Assembly: GCA_021234155.1 (NCBI GenBank)
Contig: JAJEKV010000525.1
Coordinates: 1 to 64,000, forward strand
DNA: 64,000 nucleotides
Direction: 5' to 3'
Source of the DNA: Isoetes taiwanensis
Taxonomy: Eukaryota > Streptophyta > Lycopodiopsida > Isoetales > Isoetaceae
Shown: piece by piece, positions 19,290 through 43,870 of the stretch
Layout of the letters: the number at the start of each line of letters is the position of its first letter
Position numbering within the stretch: the first letter of the stretch is position 1
Position numbers and translations under genes: made by a program
Notes under the pieces: generated by a model
Database searches by the model: none
Told to the model about the DNA's origin: nothing
The model's input: only the letters and a program-made list of their open reading frames with translations

Positions 19290-20812
19290 ATGATGAAAAT
19301 CGTGGTGAACTTTCCAAACAAGAGGACATTCGTAAAAATATTCTTCAACAAATATAAGGAACTATTTGCAGCCACCTGTACAGATAATGAAAAAATGATG
19401 GAGTTCTTTGACTACCTTGGCCCTAAGGATACACATATTGAAGATCAGCAGCTTCTGGCCACTCCAATGGAGACAGAGATTCTTGCAACTATCAGAAGTA
19501 TGGCTCATGGGAAAAGCCCGGGTCCTGATGGACTGCCACCAGAATTTTATGAACATTTTTGGAGCATTATGGATAAAGACATTACTACATTTATCCAAGG
19601 AGCCTGGCAGGCGAGGAATTTACACCCAGCAATAAATGCAGGTTTAATTGCATTGGTGCCAAAAGTGGACAAACCCTCTACATTCTCGGACTGGAGGCCA
19701 ATATCTCTCACAAATGTATCATACAAGATATCGCAAAAAATTTTGCCAATAGAATCAAGAAAATCCTACAGAAAAAATTAATCCAGCTGGGCCAAGCTTT
19801 CTCCCGTGCGTAAGCATATTGATAACTTCATTGGGGCATATGAGGGTTTACATTGGAATGGGGTTACCAACCAAGGATGTGTAACCGCCAAACCGACTTC
19901 GTGAGAGCCTATGATACCATCAATTGGAACTTTTATACGAGCCATGGACCGCTTAGGATTTTCGTAACAAGTGATTGCAAAATTGCTGGATTCAATGCTG
20001 CTGTGGTGCTCGCAAATATGGTTAATGGTACCCCATCCTCCTTCTTTGAATGTAAAAGAGGGGTTAGACAGGGATGTCCTCTGGCTCCCTATTTGTTCCT
20101 TATTGTGGCTGAAATGGTTACAAGGATCATCATGAAGTTGCAACAAACAGATAGAATCTGTAGTCTCAAGCTTCCTGGATCAACTGACACCCTGTCAGTT
20201 ATGCAATATGCTGATGACACGTTTGTGTTCTTAAAAGAGCAGGGAGACAGTATTAAAAACTTCTTGGAGGCAATGGATCTCTTTGGAAAAGCATCTGGGG
20301 TGGTTTTAAATAAAGATAAGTGTGCAATCATTCTGGACAGCTCAGATGTCAGTATTCATGGAATCAAAGTATGTGGCCTCCATACTGCTACAAAACTGTT
20401 AGGCCTACCTCTTGCTCTTAACATGAGTATGCATGGCTTATGGGAACCAATTGTCACCAAAATTAAAAAGAAACTCCAAATGTATCCCAAGTCTCTATCT
20501 CTGGCTGGAAGGGTGCAAATAATTAATGGAGTAATAGCCAGCTCTCATGTTTATTTTTCTTCAGCCATAATTGCAGATAAGAAAACATACCAGGAGTTAG
20601 AGGTCATCATGAAAGAATTCATTTGGCAAGGGGCACACATGGTAGGGTGGAAGTATCTCACTCTCCCCAGGAAAAGAGGAGGTCTAGGATGTAAGGATCT
20701 GCTTTTTGTGCCCGTGTTTTGGCAAAGAAAGCTAGTGTGGAGATCTCCGATGTCAACATCAAGGTCTCCCCGCCTTCTAATTACCAAATTCGATTCAAAA
20801 CTTCTTTGGTAG
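19290..20812 (+). pseudogene. LINE-A ORF2 reverse transcriptase, broken
   Basis: Reverse transcriptase of a plant L1-like LINE. The first frame (19290-19781) holds GKSPGPDGLPPEFYEHFW and LIALVPKVDKPSTFSDWRPI (RT blocks 1-2). After a frame break at about 19780-19853 the second frame continues with FVRAYDTINW, GVRQGCPLAPYLFLIVAE, and the catalytic YADD at 20207-20218, then ASGVVLNKDKC and LTLPRKRGGLGCKDL. All key RT motifs, including the aspartate pair, survive, but at least one frameshift and a stop at 20810 interrupt the ORF. Confidence 0.85.
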
Positions 20813-20839
20813 GGAGTCCATCTACCCTCACCACCTCCC

Positions 20840-22265
20840 GTGATTCAAAGATTTTACCAACTCAATCCTGCTCTAGGTACATCTGTCATTATGAGAAGAA
20901 TTATCCAAGCCTGGAATAAGGTTTCTGTTTGTTTTAAGGCCCATCAAATTGAAGATGTTTCTAGGGACTTTAACTTCTTTTGGCATCAGGGCTTAGTTGA
21001 TGAGGAAGATGGATGTCTAGCCTTAAAGCATCCAAGGAAATACAAAGAATGGAAACTCAGTGGATTGGATACTGTTGGCAATATGTTAAATGGTGAAGAA
21101 TGGAAAACATGGCAGGAAATATCTAATGTGGTACAAGACTCCACTTTGAACAGGAACATTCACAAGATCCTCACTAGACATCAGATGAGAGATACAACCC
21201 TAGCTAGAGGTCAGAACTGGACTGTACAAGGCAAAGGTTACAAGCAGGCTGTAATATATGCTCGGCCGCTATGTGAACATGGAACCAAAGTCTCAAATCT
21301 GGGGTTGTACAGAAGGAGGCCATCGTGGTCATAAGGAAAGGATGGAAATTACAAAGGTGCAAAAAAAGGTTATCTTTTTAGATGGTTGGTGCTCAATAAA
21401 AGCCTAAAGTCTAATGTTTACTGTGGCAAAATACAATGCTCAAATCTCTCGATAGATGTCCTTAGGATGTGGCCAAGCTGAAACATCCCGCCATATCTTC
21501 ATATGTCCTTGGTCTGGCACCTTTTTGGGCTTGATAAGCTAATACATAGGTCCCCCCGCGCCGTAACAAGCCAGCTATATGACTTTTTAGCAAATAGCTC
21601 TACATTCATGGACACCATTAGAACTCTTGCTCTTTGGACCATATGGAAGCATAGAAATGGTGTTGCTATAAACCAGAACAACCCGGATTTGAATGTTCTC
21701 AAGACTACAATACAATTGGAGCTGGCAGAGGCAGCCATGGCTCATAGATTGAACAGGGGAACAAACTATGACAGAAATTGGGATGGGTTGGGATCCTTTC
21801 ATGGGTTCTATGCATTTTTCTCTGCTTATTTTAATAATCTTTGTGCTGGTGATGGCAGAGTACCTGGTCAACAAACACCGTGGAAGGAGGTCATATGAGA
21901 GAGGTACCGTAAGATACACGGCCAATGACTCATCAAGAAGTGCCGGAAGCTTTGCTCGGGTAAAGACGAAACCATCATGGTCAAAACATTGGAGAAGATC
22001 CCCGAGATGAGGATATCCGCAATTTAAACAGATCTCAAGCCGTACTTTGAAGACAAGCTTAAAATTTGTGTTGATGCAAGAGAATCTTGGATACCTATAT
22101 TCGACTCGGGCGCTTTGGGGCTCGAACTTGACACCGCTTCCTTCGAGAACACAACTCATGCTTTTGCAAAGGATAACTCTCGATGGAGTTCGGATGATTA
22201 AGGCCTTAACAAAACCCTCGACTATCTTATATTTACAGTTTTTATGCAAGAACTTTGAACTTTAA
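20840..22265 (+). pseudogene. LINE-A ORF2 C-terminal part and 3' region
   Basis: Post-RT region. Frame 20840-21334 continues the protein (WTVQGKGYKQAVIYARPL). At about 21467-21515 a frame reads CGQAETSRHIFICPW, the zf-RVT type C...H...C motif. Frame 21503-21898 follows (LALWTIWKHRNGVAINQN), typical of plant LINE ORF2 ends. The last part (about 21880-22260) matches the C-terminus of copy 1 (VKTLEKI / VKTLRRI). Several frameshifts are present. Confidence 0.65.
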
Positions 22266-27244: not shown

Positions 27245-28030
27245 AAAGTGTATAGGCTATGATTAGCCATTTGCATTAACTACAAAAGGTTTTTAATCCC
27301 GCATTTGACGCTCTCGGAATACAAGACATCAACTGCATACACTAATGCTCAACAAGTCGATAATCTCGCCAAAGGCCTTCCAAAGTCCGAGACGAATCTA
27401 TTTTTGGCAAATTCAGATCTAATATCTGAACCAAAGGTTTGGGTTTGCATTACAGAGCTTAAATCGACTTGATGATTAACACGCCTTAATCCGCCAAAAA
27501 AAGGCCGGAACGGGTCTCCGCCCTTTTAGGGTTCCTAGATTTTTGTCGAACAATATCCCACTCAAGACAAAAAAGTTGTAAAGTGGTATATATAGATTGA
27601 TTGTCGTGATCCTTTTTATTAAAATTATCGCGGCTACCTTCAATGGATTCGGACATGTTGCTATTTAGGCCCCACATGCCGTGAGGTACCACGCGGGCGC
27701 CTTTTGGAGATTGGATTAGTTAAATACTAGGCTTGATGGGGATTAGATAGGAATTTTTCTTTTTCAAATTTGGCACCATTCCCAAACAATGAAGGTCAAT
27801 AATATGGTTTTTTCAAACATTCTTTTGGATTAGATAGATTTTTTTTCTTCAAATTTGGCATGATCTCAAGAAATGAAGGTCAATATGGTTCTTTTTCAAA
27901 AATTTTTCCAAAGGAATCTTTTTTTTGAGTTCTCTCTAAAGATGGGGAGAATCTTTGCAAAAAGAGCATTCTCGCCATCTTCGTGTGTCCAATAATTTGC
28001 ATGAGCTTGTTCAATTGTAAAGGCATGATT
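27245..28030 (+). repeat. Dispersed repeat R1, copy 3 (head only)
   Basis: Shares the R1 head with copies 1 and 2: 'ggctatgattagcc', 'taatgctcaacaagtcgataatctcgcc', 'cacatgccgtgaggtaccacg' (27670-27695), 'ttagataggaa'. The 'ttagataggaattttt...caaatttggca' module occurs twice here (27735-27780 and 27829-27865), a small internal duplication. The 'gatgatgtgg' middle and the tail are missing. Confidence 0.65.
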
Positions 28031-28269
28031 TAACACCTGGCCGTTATTCCTAAAGTCGCCGCAGATTCAAAAGAGCGTACCGATCCTTCCGTAGGCTGTT
28101 CCTAAAAGAGTAGCCGATCCTTCCGCTTGGCCGGATTCTTAAATTTTGAGCTTGATCAAAGCCAAGCTTACACTGTGATAATGGCATCAAGACTCCGGGA
28201 TTCGTAGAGGAGTTTAATAATGGACCGAGAGAATCTATGATCATATAGCAAAAATGTTTGTTGGGGATA

Positions 28270-31200
28270 AATTTCAGGAAGATGTGAGGATAATCAAGGA
28301 GGTTTTAGAAGTCGGGCAGTGAGGAATGGCATGGCATTCCTCAACCTTGGAGTGGACCATTGATGAAGCTCCCAACAATGCCAATAGGCATTGCAAGTAC
28401 AATGGTGGGAATAGCCAATGAGATTCTCCAACCAAGAGACAATCGTTTTCGCTCAAGGCCAAGCTACTACATCTCCCACATCCGTAATTATATCTTCAGG
28501 TGGTTCTTCCTGCAAGGTCCCCGAGGATTTGTTGCAAAAGACCCAAAATGGTGTATGGGAAGTCAATGAAAAGAAGTTCCACACACCTTGATTTGAAGAG
28601 GGCGGGTATGATCAAGAAAAGTGCGGACATGCTTGCTCAAAATAGTACAATCCGGAGAATAATGCAAGCACTTCCCAATATATGATGAAGTTGGATTTCG
28701 TGAGGGGAGAAGACCGAGGATAGGAACTTAAGAGACGAGGTGGCGCGAGAGATACTAGCAAGTGGATCTATGAGGCCTATTAGGTTCAAGGATGGAACGA
28801 CCGACATGCCTAGCGGATGTCGCTAAAAAAAAAAAGTAAGAGCTTGTAATGTTTATTTCTCTTGGTTTTATATAGCTTTTCTTTTTTTTGAATGGCTTGC
28901 TTTCTTGAATGGCGTGATCTCAAAATACTTGCATGATAAGAGAGCTCGGTTTAAAGATGAAGCAAAACGCCTAAGACACCAAGGACCTATGACTTTGGTG
29001 ACACTATCGCGGTATTTATATATGGAAGCCACCCCGAAGTTTTAGAGTTAAGAGAGATGAAATTTTGTGATCGTGATCTTCATGCGTGTATCACAAAAGA
29101 GAGAAATATTTTGATCGACTAACGCCTATTGTGGATCCAAGGGTTGTACTTGGCATTGTGGAGGCCGTGGAGGATAGTGAAGTGCGGAACTTGAAGTGTC
29201 CATCAAGCTTTTAGTACCGAAGAAGATCTAAACAAAGAAATGTTTGTGCCCGCCAAGATTTATCAGTTTTTGATCTAAAACTTGAGGTAAGTTCGTGAGG
29301 TTATCTTGCATTTGCCCTTTTTTGTTGTTGACTTCTAGCTTTTGTATTATAATTCGCCATATAGGAGAGGATCTTTTGGGTCCTAATGTATGACAGATTT
29401 GCATGGAGATGTCCGCAAAACGCAGAGGGAAGAAAAAAGGTTAGGGTTAGGTTACGAAGGGAGGCTTACCATGCTATCGCCAATCGGTAGTTCTAGGAGC
29501 AAGGACAAAAAGAAAATTGCTACAGTGAAGGAGAAGCAGTACGTGTTGAGGACCAGAATACAACGGGTAAGAACGTGGTTGTTAAGAGTGAATGAGAGTA
29601 AACGATCTCATTAGAATTTCATTTGTGAACGATCTTCTTGTCCTCGTGAATGACAGAGAGTAACATCGAATTTGCTGATCCTGTTGTCCTTTGTAGGCTT
29701 CAACAATGGGTGTTCCAAAGAATGGGCATTCTTTTGACTCTCAAGATCCAAAGAAAGGATGCCTACTTATGAATGTTGTTGAGAAGAGCCATGATTATGC
29801 AGGGGATGACATGGATCGATGATGAATTCTTGGGAGCGCTTGAAAAGGACGAATGTGATAAGGACATTCCCCCATCGAAAAACGAGAGCAACGAGAGCAA
29901 AACTTAAGAAGATGTAAGTGTTAGTGGCTTCATGATATGTATTTGGTAGCAACGCCATTTGTTGATACCTTAGTCTAATAGGACGGTGAAGATAAAATGC
30001 ATGAAGGAGACATACTAGTCTTGTCCAATGAAGATGGCGGCGAGGTTGCCTATGGGAAGGTGCGCAAATGGGATGACTATGAGTTATTAATTCTAATACG
30101 TATGACTCGACAAAGCAGAAGGATCTCCTCATTGCAATGGTCTCTTATCCTCCCAAGGCTCTTAGTTGGTCTTACGATAAGGTATACTTTTCTCTAAACC
30201 ATATTCCATCTTAATTTTGTTGCCAACTCCATTAAATGTCCTGCTTATGCCATGAAAATTTCTCATAGATCTAAAATACCAATGACCTTCATCCACAAGG
30301 CCCGCATGAATGCATAAAATCAAAACACTTGTAAATACTGACCTCAAGCCCTTTGCTTGAATATAATCTAATTAAAGGAATTTCACAAAAATTTTAAATG
30401 GAATCGATGAGGATGAGGACAAATTGATGTTCTCGCTTACCATCTTCCAGATGAGTGGAAGAATAAACCGCAGAGGAGTCCCAGATATAAGAGTTCTTGC
30501 CGCATTTGTTACTAATGATTATCATAGGCGCAGTCTCCAAGGAACGATCGTGACTTTCTCTCGCCAAGACAATGTAAGTACCCTTGCAAGTTCAATCTTA
30601 CATCCAAGAACATAGGCGACTTCTTGAGAGAGTTCATCGAAAGCAATGCTTGGAGTTCAAGCCGCTATTTGTGAAGACGAATGCATGGGAGGGTGATAAA
30701 TTTGAGGAAAAAGATCTTCTTACCATGTAGTTCTCGTTTCTTACTCTTTGGGTCTCTACATTTTAAATCTAGTTTGGGCGTAAATATCTTTTGTCACTTC
30801 ATGTTTTTCTATTGATCTTTCTATAACTTAAAGTTATAATGGCCATGTATAATTTTCAGATACAATATAGCTATACCTCTATTTCCATATATGAATGTTT
30901 TGCACCTCTCAGAAGTTAATTAAACTGTTCCCGCCATGAAGTGAATGGAAGTAGTTTCTTGAACCATTAGTTCTTGGCTATTGGAAGTGAATGCATGCAT
31001 GAATAAGTGAAAAGCACATATTCATGCAAGTGCTTTTAAGAGTGATGTCATTGAACCGCATTAATTCACATGTACACCTTATAGAGGTTCGTCTTGCATC
31101 AATCCCTATCATCGGTAACGCCCTTATCGGCCAAAGAACGGCATTGGGATGACGATCATTGGGGAATATAAACAAGCAAGCTACAGTGTTTGTAGACATG

Positions 31201-34030
31201 GATATGATAAAGAATAGCCACCTTCAAGAAATAGGCTGTTACCCCTGAAACATTGAAATGGAGGGTGCAAGCAGTCATATTCAAGATTCCAAACCGTGGA
31301 AAGGTAAAGGTCCGCTACGCAGACGATCCGGGTATATTGGAAGACACAAATGAAACCAAAATTTCGCACAAGGTATGCATGCTTTTTCTACCCTCTACTT
31401 CCCTTCCAGCCATTAAGCTTGTTGGACAGTGGTAGTACTAAGTTCTTTTTGGTGACATGTTCCACTGGACCTTATCGAACACCGTTATGATATTATAGAA
31501 TTGAATGGTTGACATGACTCTTAATCCACCGTAAATATAAAGATGTCGAGGAAATACTTAAGTTTCTACATTTTATTGTCACTCGGCCGGGCCTTTCTTT
31601 TTCCTTCATACTTCGCTTAAGTAATGTAAAACTAACCCTAAGCCGCTTAAGCACTTTTCCTTTATTGGTGCTTTTAGGAATAACGAAGGCTTGTGTCACC
31701 TAGGAGTCCCAATGAGGCTTGATTTTGGCCAAAGAGACACCAAGTTTTCAAAGTTTAGTCCGCATAAGTTTGATACCTTGAGATTTAGTTGATGAAGTAT
31801 TGAGATTAGATTGTTTGTGGCATGGTTGCAGATGACTTATCAACTTGAATATGATGGTGCCTCAAAAGGAAATCCCGAAAGTCCGGTGCAGTGCAGCCTT
31901 TTATTAAGGCCACCCGATGGCCATATATTGTATGTTCTTAAAGTCAGTCTTTAGTCCGGGCAAAGATTTTGAAGTATATCTAGTCTTGTTTTCAAGAACA
32001 TTGCCAGATAAATTGTAGGTTGCAAGTGAATTATAAAGCATAGTCAATTCATCGTGATTTATCTCAAGTAGTGCATTTGCAAAGCGCGGAAGGTCATGCC
32101 GCCACTTAAAACAACACCGATGTGCACCTAGCCACATTGATAAGTTATTTTTATTCGCTTTTATTTATATGTATATTTTTCTTGCTCAAAATAATGATGA
32201 CGCTTGTGTGGTATGTCAAAATAGGTTCGTGGATGCCGGAAAGTCGAAAATATCACATTATTATTTAAGAAGCAAAATAAGCCGACATGGTTTTGACAAT
32301 TTTCGATTCACTGTGTTAGAAGGGTAAGGCTTTGTACCTTGTTCTCAGAGCGGCCAGCCATTGATGAGAGCGTAAGTATCATTTGTTTTGAACTCTATAA
32401 ATGACATGTCACTTCAGAGGATTCAAATATTGTTAGATGCATTGGCAAATATTGCCGCCAGTTCTTCAAAGTTGTCATCGAAGATCTACAATACTCTTTT
32501 TAACTTAATTTTATAACTTTTGCCGTAATGCTATATTAGAAGGTAATAATTAAATTTTTGAAATGGCGTTAAAGAATAAGTTAGAGTTAACAAAGGCAGA
32601 TGTGTTTGTACCGAGACACTTGGCTAATAGCAAACTTGTCATAATGCGTAAAATGATGCTGAAAGCCCAAGGTGTGGAAATGACCAGGATGTGGATGCCT
32701 AGAAACAGCTTCATCAAAGGCAAATGCTTGCAACTTAAGACACTCGCTAATAGCAAACTTGTCGTTAAGAAAGTATTTTTATAAATAAATGTATTGAGTT
32801 ATTTGTGGATAATAGAATCTGAATAAATTAGACCGCTTGGTGCAAAGAATTTTGAATTCATCACAATTTAATGAGACATTGTGATTTTATGAAGCAAAGA
32901 ATGGCTAACTTATCTAAGAAAAACGATGAATTCAAGTTCTTATTTTGTTGATTTGTATTGAAAGTGTGTGTTGTTCAAACGATTGATGTTCAAAATGAGT
33001 TGTGTTTTTGGGTCAATATCATTCCATAATTCGCTTGACCGATATTGCTCTCATGTTCTCGCAATAAGGTTGCCAAAGAGGTCCGAAAATGATATTAGCC
33101 GGATGACAATTTTAGCACGATAGTGTCATCCCATTCAATGGACGATCCATTCATAACAACATGAAGGCTTTTAAAAAAAAACTTTACCTTTTCTTATTGA
33201 TGAATCCTTCATCGGGTTATTTGATGTCTAATTTTCTTTTATTAGGTACATGATTTCCTCAAATGTTGAGAAGTTGCTTCCATCTTCTTGACAAATGCCC
33301 TTTGGTATGCCGGAAGGATTAATTTCAAATTGGATTTTGTGGGTGAACCTAGTTACGGATGGACCGCACCGCCAGACTTTGGGCGTTGATATCATGAGAA
33401 AAGTCTCGTAAAGGTGATGACCATCTTATTAGTTTCTGGATATTCTTTTTGCTATATGGTATGTTGATATAACAGGAGCATTTGTTCAATGTTCTTTTCA
33501 TTTATTAATCGCTAAATAACTTGAATTGAAGAGTTGAAGCATAACCGAAAGCCACATTTTTTTAAGTTTGAACTGCTTCCGTGAAATGCTCTACATGGAC
33601 TAAAGTTGATAAAGTCACATATGCAAACATTTTTGTTGCATAATAAACATGTCGAGCTTTTAGGATTGGGTAAGCTCATTCACTCATATCTCTTGAAAGC
33701 TTACCTAGTTACTTAGTAACCTCACCGCATCGCATGTCCCTTGGGTAGGCTAAAGAAGAACCAAATATTCAAGGGAAAAGAATGAATGGTAGTAGGCAGG
33801 CTATGCTGGTGAACTCCACTTTTGTATAAAAATATGTAAGTTGTTTTATCTGAGGTGGCGTTCAGATTTAGTTTAATTTAACGGAAAAATATTTGATATA
33901 ATCCATTAGCTCAATTAATTGTTTTGAAATCTACAGGTCTCTCTTTTGCATGGTGATGCTCTAGAGTCCAATACATTGTGGACCGTTTTACAAATATGGC
34001 CAGCTGGATCAATCAATCTTCCGGATGTAA
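28270..34030 (+). pseudogene. Decayed multi-exon locus with RNase H-type exon
   Basis: A string of short exon-like plus-strand frames separated by intron-like AT-rich DNA with donor-like GTAAGT/GTATGC. Examples: GDTIAVFIYGSHPEVLELRE (about 29000), RLTPIVDPRVVLGIVEAVED (about 29120), MHEGDILVLSNEDGGEVAYG (29997), MSGRINRRGVPDIRVLAAF (30451), VQAVIFKIPNRGKVKVRYAD (31262), and the RNase H-type exon at 31832. The frames do not join cleanly and stops intervene. I cannot name the complete protein; apart from the RNase H piece nothing is recognised. It may be one old host gene, or several captured exons in an element. Confidence 0.35.
31832..31954 (+). pseudogene. RNase H-like exon fragment
   Basis: Follows an acceptor-like 'ggttgcag' at 31824-31831. 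The 40-codon frame starts MTYQLEYDGASKGNPESPVQ and continues LLLRPPDGHILYVL before a stop at 31952. The 'DGASKGNP' strand with the first catalytic aspartate, followed by 'R-x2-DG-x-I', is the signature of plant type 1 RNase H domains, which cut RNA in RNA-DNA hybrids. The glycine-rich second half (normally GPAGAGAVL) is corrupted to ESPVQCSLL. The remaining catalytic residues were not found in frame downstream; a frame at 32563-32784 with two 'NSKLVI/NSKLVV' motifs could be a weak, duplicated relic. Confidence 0.5.
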
Positions 34031-34309
34031 GTATCATTTTCATTTAAAAGAGGTGAGTACTTTTTGTGTCTTGAAGGGAACATCTCAAAATTAAAAGATA
34101 GACATTCTTCGCTATAATGTCAATACTTTGATTGATACTACTTCATCTACATTATCAAAAGAATTTAATGAAACCACACTTTTGTTCTTAATTTGAAGTG
34201 CTATTTTCGTGTAGATCTTTGTTGTTTCCAAGATTTCAGATAGTCGTTTTAAAATAGCTTTAAAAGACTTTTCTAATATGTGAAAAAAAACAATAGGTAA
34301 GACCTACAT

Positions 34310-34750
34310 GTCGCTTTTTTAGGTTTTATTAAGAACCACATGTTCAGGAGGAAAGCAAAGACTTGAAAACTGCAGCCTACTATTAGAAAAGACATATAGA
34401 AACAGATGTTATACTACATGTAGATAAACCTTGAGAAAGTGAAACAACAGCTTAAAACTTACACGCTATTTTTTAAGTTATTAAAAGCCACATGTCTCAT
34501 TTCCAGAGGAAACCAACACTTGAAAATCCAGACCTATTTTTAGAATCAACATGTAGAAATAGATGTTATTCTACATGTAGATCTTTGTAAAACCTACACG
34601 CCATCTTTGTAAGGTTTATGAAGAACCACGTCTGCTTTGAGGAAAACAACATTTGAATACTACAGCTGTTATTAGAAACAACATTAGAAAAAGATGTTAT
34701 CCTACATGTAGATTAATCTTGAGAAAGTGAAACAACAGTAAATAATACAT
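34310..34750. repeat. Degenerate flank of the 144-bp satellite
   Basis: Diverged repeats containing the same words as the regular array ('ccacatgt', 'ggaaa(t/c)caaca', 'acatgtagat', 'acaacatgtaga'), with irregular spacing. They look like an older edge of the satellite. Confidence 0.65.
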
Positions 34751-36490
34751 GTCTAACAAAAAGCCACATGTCCGCTGGAGGAAATCAACACACCTACTTT
34801 TAGAAACAACATGTAGAAAGAGATGCTAATCCCATGTAGATAAATGTGCTCAAACAAAAACAACATGTAAAAACTACATGTCACCTTCTGAATTTAACAA
34901 AAAGCCACATGTCTGCTTTGAGGAAATCAACACACCTACTTTTAGAAACAACATGTAGAAAGAGATGCTAATCCTACGTAGATAAATGTGCTCAAAACAA
35001 AAAAACAACAAAAAACTACATGTCACCTTCCTCAATTTAACAAAAAGCCACATGTCCGCTTTGGAGGAAATCAACACACCTACTTTTAGAAACAACATGT
35101 AGAAAGAGATGCTAATCCCACGTAGATAAATGTGCTCAAACAAAACAACATGTAAAAACTACATGTCACCTTCCTCAATTTAACAAAAAGCCACATGTTG
35201 CTTTGAGGAAATCAACACACCTACTTTTAGAAACAACATGTAGAAAGAGATGCTAATCCTATTGTGTAGATAAATGTGCTCAAACAAAAACAACATGTAA
35301 AAAACTACATGTCACCTTCTGAATTTAACAAAAAGCCACATGTCTGCTTTGAGGAAATCAACACACCTACTTTTAGAAACAACATGTAGAAAGAGATGCT
35401 AATGGGCTGTGTAGATAAATGTGCTCAAACAAAAACAACATGTAAAAACTACATGTCACCTTCTGAATTTAACAAAAAGCCACATGTCTGCTTTGAGGAA
35501 ATCAACACACCTACTTTTAGAAACAACATGTAGAAAGAGATGCTAATCCTACAGGTAGATAAATGTGCTCAAACAAAAACAACATGTAAAAAACTACATG
35601 TCACCTTCTGAATTTAACAAAAGGCCACATGTCCCGTTGGAGGAAATCAACACACCTACTTTTAGAAACAACATGTAGAAAGAGATGCTAATCCTACAGT
35701 GTAGATAAATGTGCTCAAACAAAACAACATGTAAAAACTACATGTCACCTTCCTCGAATTTAACAAAAGGCCACATGTCCGCTTTGGAGGAAATCAACAC
35801 ACCTACTTTTAGAAACAACATGTAGAAAGAGATGCTAATCCTAAGGTGTAGATAAATGTGCTCAAACAAAACAACATGTAAAAACTACATGTCACCTTCC
35901 AATTTAACAAAAGGCCACATGTCCGCTGGAGGAAATCAACACACCTACTTTTAGAAACAACATGTAGAAAGAGATGCTAATCCCTGTAGATAAATGTGCT
36001 CAAACAAAAACAACATGTAAAAACTACATGTCACCTTCTGAATTTAACAAAAGGCCACATGTCTGCTTTGAGGAAATCAACACACCTACTTTTAGAAACA
36101 ACATGTAGAAAGAGATGCTAATCCTACAGGTAGATAAATGTGCTCAAACAAAAACAACATGTAAAACTACATGTCACCTTCCGGAATTTAACAAAACGCC
36201 ACATGTCTGCTTTGAGGAAATCAACACACCTACTTTTAGAAACAACATGTAGAAAGAGATGCTAATCCTACAGGTAGATAAATGTGCTCAAACAAAACAA
36301 CATGTAAAAAACTACATGTCACCTTCCTGAATTTAACAAAAGGCAACATGTCTGCTTTGAGGAAATCAACACACCTACTTTTAGAAACAACATGTGGAAA
36401 GAGATGCTAATCCTACAGGTAGATAAATGTGCTCAAACAAAAACAACATGTAAAAACTACATGTCACCTTCTGAATTTAACAAAAAGCCA
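34750..36490. repeat. Satellite of about twelve 144-bp units
   Basis: Tandem units starting at about 34756, 34897, 35039, 35184, 35328, 35471, 35618, 35762, 35908, 36049, 36192 and 36337, with a last partial at 36480. Spacing is 141-147 bp. Each unit contains 'aggaaatcaacacacctac', 'acaacatgtagaaagagatg', 'gataaatgtgctcaaac' and 'aactacatgtcacctt'. ACATGT palindromes recur four or five times per unit. Units are nearly identical except at three short sites. Open frames inside are not genes. Diverged sequence with similar words continues to about 36800. Confidence 0.9.
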
Positions 36491-37140
36491 CACATAGTTT
36501 TTAGCAAATCCGGACAAAACTCTACACGTAGTCTTTTGATGTCTTTTTTTGTAAAAGAACAACACTTGAAAACAACACTTGAAAAAACAACATGTTGACT
36601 TTTGATGTTTTTGCAAGAACCACATGTAGAGAAAGTTGCAAAAATTCTATGTAGATTTTTGAAAAAAAAAAAGACATGTCTAAAATTTATGCTAAAAAAC
36701 CACACGCCATTTCTAGTAAATCCGACAAAAACAACCTTCAGTTTTGGTGTTGTTTTTTTTTGCAAAAAGACACTAAAAACAACATGTGGACCGGTTTTAG
36801 TGGTAGTGTAGAATCAGAAGAACACACTCACATGGAAGGTATTACCAAGCTGGTGGTTTTTTGGATGGAGAGCACTCTATGCAATTAAAACAATTGTTTT
36901 CGCGCAAAAAATTCATGATTGGCCACCTTTAAAGCCCCACTACCTCGGGCTTTGGTAGAGCCCCGCTTTTTTGTATGGTTCAAGTGCAGGGGCCCACGCC
37001 ATTAGTGCTAGTGCTTGGGAGAGCTTTGAGCGGTGCAAAGTCCTTTCACTTCACTTACTTTGAGTTAAAAGAACGGTGCCCTCATGCTATTCTTTACAAG
37101 AGATGTGTTTTGGCCTCTTCAACATTCCGCCATGAAGCCA

Positions 37141-39075
37141 TTTCTATAACATTGAGCTTGAATCTAAAAACTAGTGCTACATCCTTTACATTGATTGGTG
37201 GAGGGCCATACCCCTTTGTATTTTTTGTATAAGAATATGGAGTGTTTGGGATCTTTGGTCGATGGCCTTTATGGATCGAGAATTTGGACCCCATGTTTTT
37301 GTTAGAAGAATGAATGCTAAGTACTTTACATTGGTTAGTGGAGGGCTTGTCTACTTTTTGTTCAAGCACATGGTTTTGGCCATTATGTATAAAAAAATTG
37401 GACCACATGTTGTTCTTAGAAAAATGAGTGTTAACTCCTTTAAATTGATTAGTGGTGAGCCATACTAGTTTGCAATTTGTATAGACATGTGGAGTGTTTG
37501 GGATCTTTGGCCAATAGCCCCTCCTTATGTGTAGAGAAATTGAACCCTTTGTTTTTCTTAGAAGAACGAGTGTCAAAGTCCCCATATGTGCAGAATAATT
37601 GGGCCCCATGTTCTTTCTTGGAAGAAGGAGTTACTGTAGCATCTAGCCGTGGAACTAGAAACAACGGGACAAGAAAAAGTGTGGAAAAAAGTGTTGGCCG
37701 TGAAATGTTTCCCAATAGGTTCCTGCCTTTCATTGTCTAATGTTGGTGGAAGTTGGCATGATTATTAATTAATGGTATTGGCCAATTGACAATGGCCAAT
37801 TTGATTTTCTTGTATTGTCGGCATGCAATGAATTTTGACAAAGATAAGATTTTCTTGTAGTGCTTGGATTTTGAGATTTTTAGGCCAACGTTTTTTCCTT
37901 TTCCACAAACGTCATATCAAAGGTGTACGTTCTCTCTCTATCTTTGTCTTTTAGAGAGAGAAGATGGGTTTGGACCTTAGAAATGGCCAAATTTGATGGA
38001 ATTTTAGCAATTTTTCATATGTGATGAATGAATGATGTCCTTTGACTAGGAAAAATGCTCTTGCTAACTTTGGTCTTGGCAAATGGCAATGGTGTATGAA
38101 AGGAAAGAAAATGATGTATAAAAGATGATTTTTTTGGGTGGAATGATGGTACCAAAGCCTTGGGAAACAGTAAGTCATGCCTTAAGAAATAAAATCATGC
38201 CAAAAGCTTGAATCATGCAATTACCATTGAATCTAGAGGGTCTTCCAAACCTGATATTGGGGTTCAATCTTTGACTTCAAGTGTTCAAGATGCTTAGGTG
38301 ATTAAATTTACTTCAAGAAATGCCTATATGATGCCAAACCAATGTCCACCTTTTGATTCTTCATATCAATGTGTCTTCTGTTGCCAAGTGATGGATGTCT
38401 TCAAGTTTCATGCTCTACAAGCTCAAACACACAAGTATGAAGTCAAATCTTAGCAAAGTGTGTCAAACATGCATTTAGCTCTTCTATGCTACCATTTTGT
38501 GGCAGCAATGACATGTGGATAACTTGATCATACATGGATTCTTAAAAAACCATGAAAAACACACCTCAAATGACACTACCCTAAAAATCCATGTCTTAAA
38601 AAAACAAACATCCCCTCAAAAAACCATACCTTCTTAGAAAACAACACATCCTTAAAAAAGAAACAACATCTCCTTAAGAAACCATTCATTCTTCCAAAAA
38701 AACTACAGCTCCTTAAAAAAAACAACAACATGTCCTTGAAAAACCACACCTTCAGATAACTATGTTATAATCTTTAAAAAAACAACATGTGTTTTATTTT
38801 TACTGTTGTTTTCAACTGTGGACCAAATGTTGGGGTTGTTGTGTATATTTATGCCCGGCATCGACGTGCAATTGTTACTAGTATGTACAAATTGAAAGAC
38901 GTATAGGTAAGAGTAATCATAGTGGTTCACATCTTTATCTAATTATGCATTCCTACAGACATTTTTATTAATGTTCCATTTTGTTTATTTATTTTTTCAA
39001 CAATATAGTTACAACAACTTATTATGCAAATGATGTCGCATTACAAATTAATACAACAACAACAACTTATGCTCA
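37141..39075. repeat. Long direct repeat, copy A (left of terpene synthase)
   Basis: A 1.93-kb segment repeated in direct orientation at 40947-42869 with a few per cent difference. It starts at 'tttctataacattgagc' and ends at 'caacaacaact...tgctca'. Its first 450 bp contain three imperfect internal repeats ('ggagtgtttgggatctttgg', 'gaatgaatgctaa', 'attggttagtggaggg'). The centre carries the R1 tail landmark ('tctctctatctttgtc' plus GA repeats, 37929-37968) and a distal block rich in 'ccttaaaaaaa(c)aac'. No TG...CA ends, primer-binding site or polypurine tract seen. Confidence 0.9.
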
Positions 39076-39192
39076 CCGTTGCCAGTTTGCATAAAAATCA
39101 CATGACTAAAAAACCCCGCCCGACTTGAGGGATAAACCTTGGTAGTAATAAGCCAACTGTAACAAACTTCAACAAATAGTAGCAAAGAAGTC

Positions 39193-40347
39193 CTAGCGAA
39201 TAAGCTCAAGCTCAATGCATGGCAAATCTACTTGGGCTAGCCCGTTAGCATTTGGGCCTCGAAGGAGGACTTGAAGAGGTGCATCTTGGGCTTTGGGTTT
39301 CTCATCCACGCCATGGTATCGAGCTGACACGTATGAATAAACAAGATTGCCAGATACCCAGTGGCATAATTCAGCAACATAGCTTTCCAACCCAGGTCTT
39401 TTTATCAGCTCTGAGCCTCTTATTTCTTTTAAGATTCTCACACAGTCAGCATCCCTTTCCTTGATCATTTGACAGACGATCTCAACACTGGTCTGCATGT
39501 CGTGTGACTCATGGTTGAAGCAAACGACAGAAGGAAGATTATCATATTCTCCACGAGAATACTCATAGTTTAGTGACAGCAGATCATTGACCCATGAAAT
39601 CACATCGTTGACAGCGTCGTGCAATTCAGAAATGAGCGGATGAGATAAAACCTCCTCATCAATTTCTATTCCGAGTGAATATTCCGACAGGACGAAGCAA
39701 GGAAGGCAGGCAGAAGCTTTGCGACGCTGCTGAATGTAGGTTTGCACATCGGGGATGGTGCCCTTTTCCCGGCGGATTATTTGTGATTTGCAAGCATCAA
39801 CTGAACTTTTGAAGGTTCTAAGGAAGCGTTGTTGCAGTGCAGGGGACATATCGGGGTGTATTTCAGCCCACCAATCCAATGCTATTGCCACGGCCTTACG
39901 CCGCAACTGCCCATCAGAATTAGAATCCTTTGCTTCAAGAGCATCCCCAAGAGCTTGGAATAGCTCCTCCGCGGCCAGGGAATTGTTTCCCACTCCATTA
40001 TCCATGTTGTCATTAATGTCATCCAAAGCAAACATCCATGCTATACATTTCCCCACGCATACTACCCTTGACATTTTGCCATTTGCGTATGCTGTCGACG
40101 TGAGAAGCGGGAAGCCGGACTGTATCAGAAGTTTTTTCTGATGCTCTGACGATGGGTTGAACTGAGAGAACATCCATGAATCGAGCTTCTCTTTGATTTC
40201 AGTCTGATTCTTGTGGAATGCGAGTGGCAGGGAACAAACGAGAGGAGGAATGGTGATTTGTTGTATCGTGCTAAGATAAGCCATGATTGACAAATCCTTG
40301 AGCAGAAGCTCGAAGCAAGCCTTAAAATTGATTGGTGGTAGCTCCAT
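39193..40347 (-). CDS. Microbial-type terpene synthase-like protein (MTPSL)
   Basis: Single uninterrupted frame of 384 codons. It should be a class I terpene cyclase that ionises a prenyl diphosphate with Mg2+ to give a mono- or sesquiterpene; the product cannot be predicted. Visible motifs, numbered from the chosen start: metal-binding ALDDINDNMD (D109, D110, D113), arginine pair QQRRKA at about 208-209 upstream of the second metal site, NSE/DTE motif NDLLSLNYE (N254, S258, E262), and C-terminal ARYHG (R343, Y344). Length and single-domain alpha fold match MTPSLs of non-seed plants, not the larger seed-plant terpene synthases. No transit peptide is obvious, so a cytosolic site is likely. The frame stays open to 40443, but those 32 extra codons lie mostly in a foldback, so the ATG at 40345-40347 (MELPPINFKACFE) is preferred. 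A TTTATTTATTT run at 38989-38999 could supply an AATAAA polyadenylation signal. No frame damage seen; an extra 5' exon is possible. Confidence 0.93.
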   Translation of the reverse strand: MELPPINFKACFELLLKDLSIMAYLSTIQQITIPPLVCSLPLAFHKNQTEIKEKLDSWMFSQFNPSSEHQKKLLIQSGFPLLTSTAYANGKMSRVVCVGKCIAWMFALDDINDNMDNGVGNNSLAAEELFQALGDALEAKDSNSDGQLRRKAVAIALDWWAEIHPDMSPALQQRFLRTFKSSVDACKSQIIRREKGTIPDVQTYIQQRRKASACLPCFVLSEYSLGIEIDEEVLSHPLISELHDAVNDVISWVNDLLSLNYEYSRGEYDNLPSVVCFNHESHDMQTSVEIVCQMIKERDADCVRILKEIRGSELIKRPGLESYVAELCHWVSGNLVYSYVSARYHGVDEKPKAQDAPLQVLLRGPNANGLAQVDLPCIELELIR

Positions 40348-40354
40348 CTTTTGT

Positions 40355-40446
40355 AGAATGGCATGGGAGAAGCCATTCATTCTGCCCCCATGACCTGCAA
40401 GTTGCAGGTCATGGGGGCAGCAAGAATGGCTTCCCCATGCCATTCT
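40355..40446. repeat. Foldback (46-bp arms) at the 5' end of the terpene synthase
   Basis: Left arm 40355-40400, right arm 40401-40446, with no spacer at the centre ('ctgcaagttgcag'). Arms match except near 'cattcattctg'/'cagcaagaatg' and one C-run difference. It begins 8 bp upstream of the preferred ATG, so transcripts starting further upstream would carry a long hairpin in the 5' leader. The two upstream in-frame ATGs (ending at 40443 and 40380) lie inside it. Confidence 0.9.
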
Positions 40447-40540
40447 ATTGCGTCAAGGTAAGGGAGACCTGGATTCTACAGGTTTTGGAGGGGCAATTTC
40501 TCATTCTTCACAAGGATGATTCAAGAAGATGCAAGAACGC

Positions 40541-40860
40541 AGGCCCACTTACCTTGACGTTTTTCAAGGACAACATTTGGAGTTGCCATTCATGTTGGAT
40601 GGCAACTATGCAGGCCCACTTACCTTGACGTTTTTCAAGGACAACTTTTGGAGTTGCCATTCATGTTGGATGGCAACTACGCAGGCCCACTTACCTTGAC
40701 GTTTTTCAAGGACAACTTTTGGAGTCGCCATTCATGTTGGATGGCAACTACGCATGTCCACTTACCTTGACGTTTTTCAAGGACGGAGTTGCCATTCATG
40801 TTGGACAACTTTTGGAGTTGCCATTCATGTTGGATGGCAACTTTTTGAAGATGCCATTCA
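40541..40860. repeat. 71-bp tandem repeat upstream of the terpene synthase
   Basis: About four units with 71-bp spacing (unit starts about 40544, 40615, 40686, 40757), then a broken unit to 40860. Each unit contains 'cccacttaccttgacgttt' and an inverted pair 'gttgccat...atggcaac' with 8-bp arms. A 12-bp complement of 'cttaccttgacg' occurs at 40453-40464, between the foldback and the array. Lies in the promoter or leader region of the minus-strand gene. Confidence 0.85.
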
Positions 40861-40946
40861 TTTAAAGCTTAAATTTTTTTTTATCCATTCATTAAAAAAA
40901 TTTGCAGCTGCAACAAACAAGCACATCTCGTCATACTCTTTGCCTT

Positions 40947-42869
40947 TTTCTATAACATTGAGCTTGAATCTAAAAACTAGTGCTACATCCTTTACATTGA
41001 TTGGTGGAGGGCCATACCCCTTTGTATTTTTTGTATAAGAATATGGAGTGTTTGGGATCTTTGGTCGATGGCCTTTATGGATAGAGAATTTGGATCCCAT
41101 GTTTTTTTTAGAAGAATGAATGCTAAGTACTTTACATTGGTTAGTGGAGGGCTTGTCTACTTTTTGTTCAAGCACATGGTTTTGGCCATGGCCCATTATG
41201 TATAAAAAAATTGGACCACATGTTGTTCTTAGAAAAATGAGTGTTAACTCCTTTAAATTGATTAGTGGTGAGCCATACTAGTTTGCAATTTGTATAGACA
41301 TGTGGAGTGTTTGGGATCTTTGGCCAATAGCCCCTCCTTATGTGTAGAGAAATTGAACCCTTTGTTTTTCTTAGAAGAACGAGTGTCAAAGTCCCCATAT
41401 GTGCAGAATAATTGGGCCCCATGTTCTTTCTTGGAAGAAGGAGTTACTGTAGCATCTAGCCGTGGAACTAGAAACAAGGGGATAAGAAAAATTGTGGAAA
41501 AAAGTGTTGGCCGTGAAATGTTTCCCAGTAGGTTCCTTCCTTTCATTGTCTAATGTTGGTGGAAGTTGGTGTGATTATTAATTCATGGTATTGGCCAATT
41601 GACAATGGCCAATTTGATTTTCTTGTATTGTCGGCATGCAATGAATTTTGACAAAGATAAGATTTTCTTGTAGTGCTTGGATTTTGAGATTTTTTGGCCA
41701 ACGTTTTTTCCTTTTCTACAAAAGTCATATCAAAGGTGTACGTTCTCTCTCTATCTTTGTCTTTTAGAGAGAGAAGATGGGTTTGGACATTAGAAATGGC
41801 AAAATTTGATGGAATTTTAGCAATTTTTCATATGTGATGAATGAATGATGTCCTTTGACTAGGAAAAATGCTCTTGCTAACTTTGGTCTTGGCAAATGGC
41901 AATGGTGTATGAAAGGAAAGAAAATGATGTATAAAAGATGATTTTTTTGGGTGGAATGATGGTACCAAAGCCTTGGGAAACAGTAAGTCATGCCTTAAGA
42001 AATAAAATCATGCCAAAAGCTTGAATCATGCAATTACCATTGAATCTAGAGGGTCTTCCAAACCTGATATTGGGGTTCAATCTTTGACTTCAAGTGTTCA
42101 AGATGCTTAGGTGATTAAATTTACTTCAAGAAATGCCTATATGATGCCAAACCAATGTCCACCTTTTGATTCGTCATATCAATGTGTCTTCTGTTGCCAA
42201 GTGATGGATGTCTTCAAGTTTCATGCTCTACAAGCTCAAACACACAAGTATGAAGTCAAATCTTAGCAAAGTGTGTCAAACATGCATTTAGCTCTTATGC
42301 TACCATTTTGTGGCAGCAATGACATGTGGATAACATGATCATACATGGATTCTTAAAAAACCATGAAAAACACACCTCAAATGACACTACCCTAAAAATC
42401 CACGTCTTAAAAAAACAAACATCCCCTCAAAAAACCATACCTTCTTAGAAAACAACACATTCTTAAGAAAGAAATAACATCTCCTTAAGAAACCATACAT
42501 TCTTCCAAAAAAACTACAGATCCTTAAAAAAAACAACATGTCCTTGAAAAACCACACCTCCAGATAACTATGTTATAATCTTTAAAAAAACAACATGTGT
42601 TTTATTTTTTTTGTTGTTTTTTTGGACCAAATGTTGGGGTTGTTTGTATATTTATGCCCAGTTTGCAATTGTTAAGTATGTACAAATTGAAAGACGTATA
42701 GGTAAGAGTAATCATAGTGGTTTACATCTTTATCTAATTATGCATTCCTACAGACATTTTTATTTATGTTCCATTTTGTTTATTTATTTTTTCAACAATA
42801 TAGTTACAACAACTTATTATGCAAATGATGTCGCATTACAAATTAATACAACAACAACAACTTTGCTCA
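40947..42869. repeat. Long direct repeat, copy B (right of terpene synthase)
   Basis: Direct copy of 37141-39075. Differences include a 7-bp insertion near 41186 ('ggccatggcccatt' against 'ggccatt'), scattered substitutions, and a shortened segment at about 42620-42680, where copy A has 'cggcatcgacgtgcaattg' and copy B 'cagtttgcaattg'. The left edge joins the unique sequence carrying the 71-bp array. The right edge ends at 'tgctca' (42864-42869). Confidence 0.9.
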
Positions 42870-43870
42870 AGGTCTAAAATGAAGAATAGATCTTCCAGCT
42901 TTCTTAGAACAAGCAAAAATTCTCCATTCAATCATTACCTTCCATTCTTTTCTATGATACATAAGCATCCGCTCCATAGTATTTCCTTCATTAGTTGCCG
43001 CTCCAGAAACTTGAAGGTCTATATTTGCAAAACAAAGTTACAATATTACATCCGATTATCTGTTTCATTCGCAACAGCTGTAGCCATAACTAGATTTCAT
43101 CACAATATATCATACCTGTATTAACGATCCATTTTGAACCTTATTCCCATTTTCGAGCTAGAATCAACTCTGCTAGTCAAGAATTTAAGGTGTCTAATAC
43201 TGAGAGCTGAATTGTTTCTGCATTTCCAAGCCCCTAAAATCTGTGTCCATTTCTGCATTGCCAAATCCAAATGAAATAAAGTATCACACAACCTGGTCTG
43301 TCCTGAAGCATCTGGCAGTGCAATCCTTCATTGCTATACTGAGCTGCCTTGTCTGTAGTATTGAGCGGCCTCTGCCGCTTTGCCTCTATATATGATTAAA
43401 AATGCCATATCCTAATCCTGTCTTTTGCTGCATTCAAAAATTTGATAGTGCATTTCATTAGATTACTATGTAAAACATGTTACCTTCTCTGATCATGCGC
43501 CATATCGGTTTGCCGCTCCGCCAGACTCTGTTGTCCCTCCTGAACGAAAACCTAATGAAAATGAAACCCTAAAACGAAATAAGAGAAAGGGATAAAAAAC
43601 GAAATAGAAAATAAAGAGGGAAAAAGGGACCGGGAAAAGCAAAAAATTGCTAAAAATATATATTATATCCAAAAAACAAACAAAAAATGCCCACATAAAA
43701 TTTAAAATGGATAAATGCCCGTGTACATGGAAAATAATAGGGCATTTACCTTCTATATATTTTTTTGGCGAGAACAAGGTGAGCTTCTTATTTAACAACC
43801 ATGGTCATGCACTCTTAGACAAAAGCATCTAATGAGAATATTATGAAACATGTTTAGATAAAATGTTAAC
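42870..43870. other. Low-repeat stretch, no gene identified
   Basis: Less repetitive than the surroundings and richer in CTG/CAG words (43190-43430). A minus-strand frame at 43493-43798 is hydrophobic (FFVCFLDIIYIFSNFLLFPV) but has the composition of a translated AT-rich leader. No domain recognised. Could contain non-coding exons. Confidence 0.3.

Follow-up and report, generated by a model that had tools for sequence, protein, structure and literature searches.

The window that we analyzed, a stretch of 64,000 nucleotides from Isoetes taiwanensis, contains an open reading frame (ORF) that is, on the evidence of its sequence, a real, intact, microbial-type class I terpene synthase gene of this species. 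It is a further member of the known MTPSL family of spore-bearing plants and, given its paralogues, not a unique survivor. Taking the whole account together, we consider it quite likely that the gene is a recent within-species duplicate with a tandem junction, that it lost its native promoter, and that it was later homogenized. What is most interesting about the locus is that an intact coding sequence occurs together with a replaced 5' region and what may be a conversion tract.

The uninterrupted minus-strand ORF at positions 39193 to 40347 (from the ORF list of the window) matches the Terpene_syn_C_2 domain (PF19086) with an E value of 2.7e-40 and a score of 138.7 bits, compared with a curated cutoff of 23.7. 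Solved terpene synthases are matched by the same ORF (best E value, 1.4e-28) and by a profile of its subfamily (best E value, 6.7e-32). Based on the PF19086 match, a start shared with paralogues, and a 5-row alignment, we assign the coding sequence to a single exon at 39193 to 40284 (minus strand) that encodes 363 amino acids; with this length, and with PF19086 as the sole Pfam match of the ORF, the protein is alpha-domain-only. With the ATG at 40284 used as the start for computing motif coordinates, the aspartate-rich motif DDIND (residues 88 to 92) is at 40009 to 40023, the NSE motif NDLLSLNYE (residues 233 to 241) is at 39562 to 39588, and the RY pair (residues 322 and 323) is at 39316 to 39321, all on the minus strand. 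DDIND is placed by both the 5-row alignment and an 8-row alignment that includes four plasmid-borne Streptomyces enzymes. D88, N233, D234, S237, E241, R322, and Y323 are invariant in 8 of 8 rows of the latter, and D88 is the only residue of DDIND that is invariant. The aspartate-rich motif has a role in Mg2+ binding, and the roles of the NSE and RY motifs are likewise known from the family. The first-pass annotation of this DNA had described an intron-free class I synthase of the microbial type with its DDxxD, NSE, and RY motifs intact, and each part of that description holds: the protein matches are to terpene synthases, the three motifs are present, and the catalytic domain lies in one uninterrupted ORF. 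Its placement of such genes in non-seed plants agrees with the host, a lycophyte, where they are expected. A single-sequence AlphaFold model of the window protein had a mean pLDDT of 42.7 and was too poor for use.

The ATG at 40284 is common to five paralogous loci (L001 to L005), in all of which an in-frame stop is found 16 to 28 codons upstream of the equivalent ATG with no ATG between. The start had earlier been placed at 40347, which gives an N-terminal extension of 21 codons (40285 to 40347, minus strand). This extension is unique to the window copy; alignments to the six other close copies begin at residue 10 or beyond. It is made up of 32 bp of native sequence (40285 to 40316) and 31 bp of a repeat (40317 to 40347). 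Since the repeat begins beyond 40316, the first ~10 of the 21 extra codons are repeat-derived, and the remainder is native 5' sequence. Based on the stops in L001 to L005 and the repeat origin of the 5' bases, we reject 40347 as the likely native start, and the first 21 codons of the earlier reading are probably not coding and not translated.

The BLAST matches to L001 to L005 all end at 40316, which is 32 bp before the ATG, and the sequence beyond this position is a repeat (R2) that is present without the gene at C223:869261-870157, where the match covers 40315 to 40352. We propose that the boundary at 40316 to 40317, where homology ends and R2 begins, is a tandem-duplication junction. R2 is found in the window as a short piece (40317 to 40352) and a remainder (40808 to 41663), both on the plus strand; at C223, the match to the remainder is 87% identical and follows that to the short piece within ~10 bp. 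The exact 33-base edge of the repeat has no match among 56 loci, and the C223 copy carries mismatches. This arrangement fits the loss or replacement of the native 5' region of the window copy, with its promoter cut off. The native promoter is itself poorly defined, because most of the other copies likewise have little sequence in common with one another upstream of 40316 (12 to 65 bp, with 277 bp for the C974 pair and the entire locus for C919 and C1093).

In the searched assembly (1,658,258,908 bases in 1110 contigs, with the window contig labeled C248), the protein matches 50 places, and 13 of these 50 rows belong to the window subfamily. Seven are substantial loci with 81 to 100% identity, and their matches span from 308 to all 384 residues of the query. 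Four of the seven are intact (the window copy on C248, C985, and C974 at 4.43 Mb and 5.03 Mb), and three are damaged (C919, C1093, and C974 at 10.9 Mb), each with an internal stop and the last also without its 5' end. Some of the damaged copies may be assembly errors. The remaining subfamily rows are a second C1093 piece, three 3' fragments on C974, a 51% identical fragment on C1036, and a 58% identical sister on C1036 (L007), which is a single exon of 365 amino acids with DSIND in place of DDIND. The 37 further matches are diverged; 26 of the 33 diverged loci that were fetched pass a length and motif filter, each with one uninterrupted ORF of 303 to 415 amino acids, which indicates that the family is largely intronless in this genome. 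The suggestion of a recent arrival is therefore borne out as a recent duplication, since the nearest copy differs at only 5 of 1092 coding sites, but it does not extend beyond that, given 50 matches in the same genome.

Other features of these loci are recorded here. The two intact C974 copies (near 4.43 and 5.03 Mb) face in opposite directions, and the interval that separates them contains two 3' fragments, each on the minus strand. Such an arrangement might stem from a large inverted duplication that spans ~0.6 Mb or from a join made in the assembly. At the L007 locus (G000:C1036:1512000-1521900), a cytochrome P450 gene is located ~1.4 kb upstream of the synthase (L007:1441-3051 and L007:4496-5593, respectively); it is split into two open pieces that match PF00067 with E values of 1.7e-32 and 5.7e-66. 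A partial P450 (93% over 191 amino acids) and a synthase fragment are found ~65 kb away (L008). Further diverged synthases, several of them clustered, are located at C1053:4.84-4.93 Mb and C1034:28.04-28.16 Mb and on C922, C985, C1041, C1055, and C1026, and in some diverged Isoetes synthases the aspartate motif is DSxxD or another variant.

The description of the window as transposon-dominated in the first-pass annotation is supported by many dispersed high-identity matches to the stretches that we tried. It contains 7 ORFs of at least 150 amino acids, and the other 6 yield just a reverse-transcriptase fragment above the Pfam cutoff. The synthase is thus the only undamaged long gene among these 7 ORFs, a comparison of single exons, but it is not a lone survivor genome-wide. 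Positions 19290 to 21334 contain LINE-like reverse transcriptase fragments with broken frames (PF00078, E value of 3.6e-16 in 1 of 3 ORFs); one ORF in this stretch matches a viral Tat model below the cutoff, which we take as chance. Positions 28000 to 34200 belong to a dispersed element; seven contigs carry near-full-length matches of 84 to 91%, and there is one at 77%. A 144-bp tandem satellite of ~12 copies occupies positions 34288 to 36492. Contamination is unlikely, since the surroundings of the gene share repeats with many contigs.

Constraint on the gene is visible only over a long time scale. Compared with the sister L007, dN/dS is 0.19 (NG86) or 0.23 (maximum likelihood [ML]) at a dS of 1.4 to 1.6, at which synonymous sites are near saturation; this sequence comparison indicates long-term constraint on the gene. 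Compared with the closer L003, dN/dS is 0.56 (NG86), 0.75 (YN00), or 0.82 (ML), and compared with L004 it is 0.68 (NG86), 0.94 (YN00), or 0.99 (ML). The window copy and L003 differ at 20 synonymous and 41 nonsynonymous codons, against neutral means of 15.3 and 41.8 in 4000 simulations, with nonsynonymous counts as low in 46% of the simulations and synonymous counts as high in 11%. The corresponding values are 72% and 26% for L004, and 21% and 16% for L001, from which the window copy has only 5 differences. Because the simulated neutral sets resemble the counts observed for L003 and L004, neutrality is not rejected for the recent divergence. The dN/dS comparison proposed in the first-pass annotation therefore has two outcomes, low against L007 and near neutral against L003 and L004, and the nearest copy, L001, offers just its 5 differences. 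The accompanying suggestion that survival of the gene reflects selection is not supported for this copy: its recent change is indistinguishable from neutral, and 3 of the 7 close copies are damaged.

One possible explanation for these results is that the window copy is a silent duplicate that is drifting toward decay and is intact merely through its youth. We give this explanation nearly an even chance. It is consistent with the loss of the native 5' region, with the small number of differences from L001, with the near-neutral divergence, and with the damage already present in 3 of the 7 close copies. Set against this, the pairs window/L001 and L003/L004, which are 5 to 6% apart, all have full frames; the window coding sequence aligns without indels to L001, L003, and L004; and the chance under neutrality that no stop would have arisen is ~0.08 for each of the L003 and L004 comparisons. 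In addition, gene conversion from an active copy could equally preserve the frame.

A candidate conversion tract is in fact present. The window copy and L001 share an identical tract of 909 bp (+256 to +1164). Outside this tract, 13 sites differ between +1165 and +1182, an interval in which L001 has a poly-G run, and 6 of 94 sites differ between +1201 and +1300. L005 (C1093) is a mosaic. Up to +571 it follows the window copy, apart from the interval +135 to +199, which is scrambled; from +577 it follows L002, apart from a patch at +825 to +840 and one site. The tract and the mosaic are the pattern expected of gene conversion, and polishing errors could leave the same pattern in the sequence. 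According to the available text of the genome paper, the I. taiwanensis assembly is a Nanopore assembly polished with racon and pilon (PMC8566536). The scrambled patches of L005 and the poly-G run of L001 resemble residual read error. In contrast, the L005 locus resembles L002 over 10 kb, and the 3' half of L005 tracks L002 while its 5' tract tracks the window copy rather than L001, as in conversion. We therefore regard assembly-polishing artifacts as a serious explanation for the identity and the mosaic, although one that we lean somewhat against.

The new 5' surroundings of the gene consist of repeats. Between the two pieces of R2 is a near-perfect palindrome of 94 bases (40354 to 40447) that is part of a dispersed repeat and is absent from the C223 copy of R2; the 121-nucleotide stretch around it (40340 to 40460) has a DNA hairpin dG of -52.5 kcal/mol with a z score of -13.8. 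The palindrome adjoins a 71-bp tandem repeat of 3.5 copies (40537 to 40784, plus strand), and the element formed by the two (40353 to 40790) has matches at many loci. R2 or this palindromic element might have supplied a new promoter, such that the window copy is expressed and functional, possibly with the 21-residue extension. The frame is intact and is open through 40347, with an ATG there, and both the lack of indels and the low neutral chance of a stop-free frame described above favor this possibility. However, the extension is confined to the window copy and is partly repeat-derived, and recent change in the gene is indistinguishable from neutral. We regard recruitment of a promoter in this way as possible but doubtful.

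The origin of the subfamily was examined with a tree of 45 rows: the 5 of the window clade, 26 others from Isoetes, 10 from prokaryotes, and 4 from solved structures. The length and motif filter left out 7 of the 33 fetched diverged loci (L010, L011, L019, L026, L028, L030, and L036); also left out were the damaged L002, L005, L006, and L008, the fragments L042 to L044, and 4 of the 37 diverged matches. The 5-row window clade has support of 100/100 and, in the free tree, is outside the main Isoetes group of 22 rows (93/84), but the branch that joins it is weak (58/81), with long-branch warnings. The AU test does not reject a single clade for the full set of 31 Isoetes rows (P value of 0.385) or a grouping of the window clade with the main group (P value of 0.49); the groups in these tests were named after inspection of the tree. 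Since the AU tests reject neither grouping, a separate horizontal transfer is possible but unsupported.

Recent transfer of the subfamily from a bacterium or fungus, independent of the other Isoetes MTPSLs, would account for the position of the window clade in the free tree and for an identity to Isoetes L009 (25%) that is in the same range as that to Streptomyces enzymes (23 to 27%). Nevertheless, we consider it unlikely, in view of the AU results and the lack of a close microbial match: among 31 plasmid records with a match, identity does not exceed 29% for short pieces or 27.5% for long ones, and the top prokaryote hits that span most of the query come from Streptomyces plasmids and are 26 to 27.5% identical. 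When prokaryote genomes were scanned for the pattern of the subfamily alignment, 0 of 61 stretches were confirmed; this is a weak test, since the equivalent scan with a Streptomyces protein likewise turned up no relative of it. Fungi are represented in these comparisons by solved structures alone.

On a larger scale, the gene lies between two direct repeats on the plus strand, copy A on its 5' side (40947 to 42869) and copy B on its 3' side (37141 to 39075), which are 97% identical over 1942 columns. The gene-proximal 85 to 230 bp of copy B are the 3' flank shared by the paralogues (38846 to 39192, minus strand), which extends to 38991 in L001, to 38877 in L002 and L005, and to 38846 in L003 and L004. 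Beyond copy A is a dispersed repeat (42878 to 43813) with its edge 9 bp past the end of the A/B homology, and nine matches start at 42878. Capture of the gene in a nonautonomous long terminal repeat (LTR) retrotransposon, with A and B as LTRs, is suggested by such 1.94-kb, 97% identical repeats on both sides of the gene, but we reject it as highly improbable, because the R2 match at C223 crosses the supposed LTR edge at 40946/40947 unbroken and the other repeat end is inside the 3' flank of the paralogues, and there is no clear TG...CA pair at the printed repeat ends and no other full-length repeat among the 40 of 1640 candidates that were scored. Retroposition of gene copies is unproven: L001 has just six A residues at the end of homology, and the longer A runs of L002 and L005 are located further downstream instead of at that end. 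Intron loss is uninformative on this point because the family is intronless here.

From the breakpoints, repeats, copy number, domain, and motifs that we observed, we infer the following order of events for the tandem-duplication account that we prefer. Tandem duplication would have involved a unit made up of the gene, the 32 bp that precede its ATG, the 3' flank, and the adjoining repeats, so that the retained gene starts at the unit junction (40316/40317) and hence is without its native promoter. The gene of the second unit would since have been lost, with the dispersed repeat at the break (42878), and the palindromic repeat would have been inserted just upstream of the retained gene. The coding frame would have stayed intact, and its sequence would have been homogenized with that of one or more dispersed copies, through gene conversion if not through polishing of the assembly. 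Two observations count against this order: copy B ends at 37141, whereas the repeat of copy A continues to 40317, and a second synthase gene was not found on contig C248 (158,939 bp), which has one match only. A broader scheme, in which an intronless subfamily is maintained by conversion while its 5' regions are replaced through transposon-driven rearrangement, and in which the window copy is young, encodes an intact enzyme, uses a promoter derived from a repeat, and perhaps goes back to a horizontal transfer separate from that of the main Isoetes group, seems improbable to us as a whole. By analogy with the family, the enzyme would bind Mg2+ through DDIND and NDLLSLNYE and ionize a prenyl diphosphate; the substrate is most likely geranyl diphosphate (GPP) or farnesyl diphosphate (FPP), with FPP as the leading candidate. 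The carbocation would then be released or cyclized to give a mono- or sesquiterpene.

MTPSL-type genes are reported to be widespread among non-seed plants but missing from seed plants (PMC13137197). The word "terpene" is absent from the text of the I. taiwanensis genome paper (PMC8566536), and as judged by titles and abstract openings, we found no description of these genes in the literature on Isoetes terpene synthases. Our results indicate that microbial-type terpene synthases are present in Isoetes, as they are in Selaginella and Huperzia; besides the window subfamily, the genome has 37 diverged matches. The P450 gene beside L007 hints at a possible small pathway. Taken together, the copies would allow expression and chemistry to be set against promoter loss, damage, and possible gene conversion.

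Compared by description with the eight MTPSLs of Selaginella moellendorffii, which mostly have zero or one intron, are 323 to 372 amino acids long, and make mono- and sesquiterpenes in vitro (PMC7826640, available text), the window gene is alike in its lycophyte host, its size, its few introns, its DDxxD and NSE-type motifs, and its presence in several copies. HsMTPSL1 of Huperzia serrata, as presented in the available part of its description (PMC13118282), is likewise a microbial-type enzyme of a lycophyte, with DDxxD and NDxxSxxxE motifs and a reported closeness to bacterial enzymes. It is a diterpene synthase, in contrast to the window enzyme, which we liken by analogy to mono- and sesquiterpene producers. 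Within Isoetes, L007 resembles the window gene in being a 58% identical single exon and differs in its DSIND motif and nearby P450 gene. The solved class I synthases 9lpb, 7ofl, and 8gr5 (AcCop4) are related in sequence, with E values down to 6.7e-32 for the subfamily profile, but the relationship is distant: the four aligned Streptomyces plasmid enzymes are 23 to 27% identical to the window protein, and the window gene resides in a plant genome.
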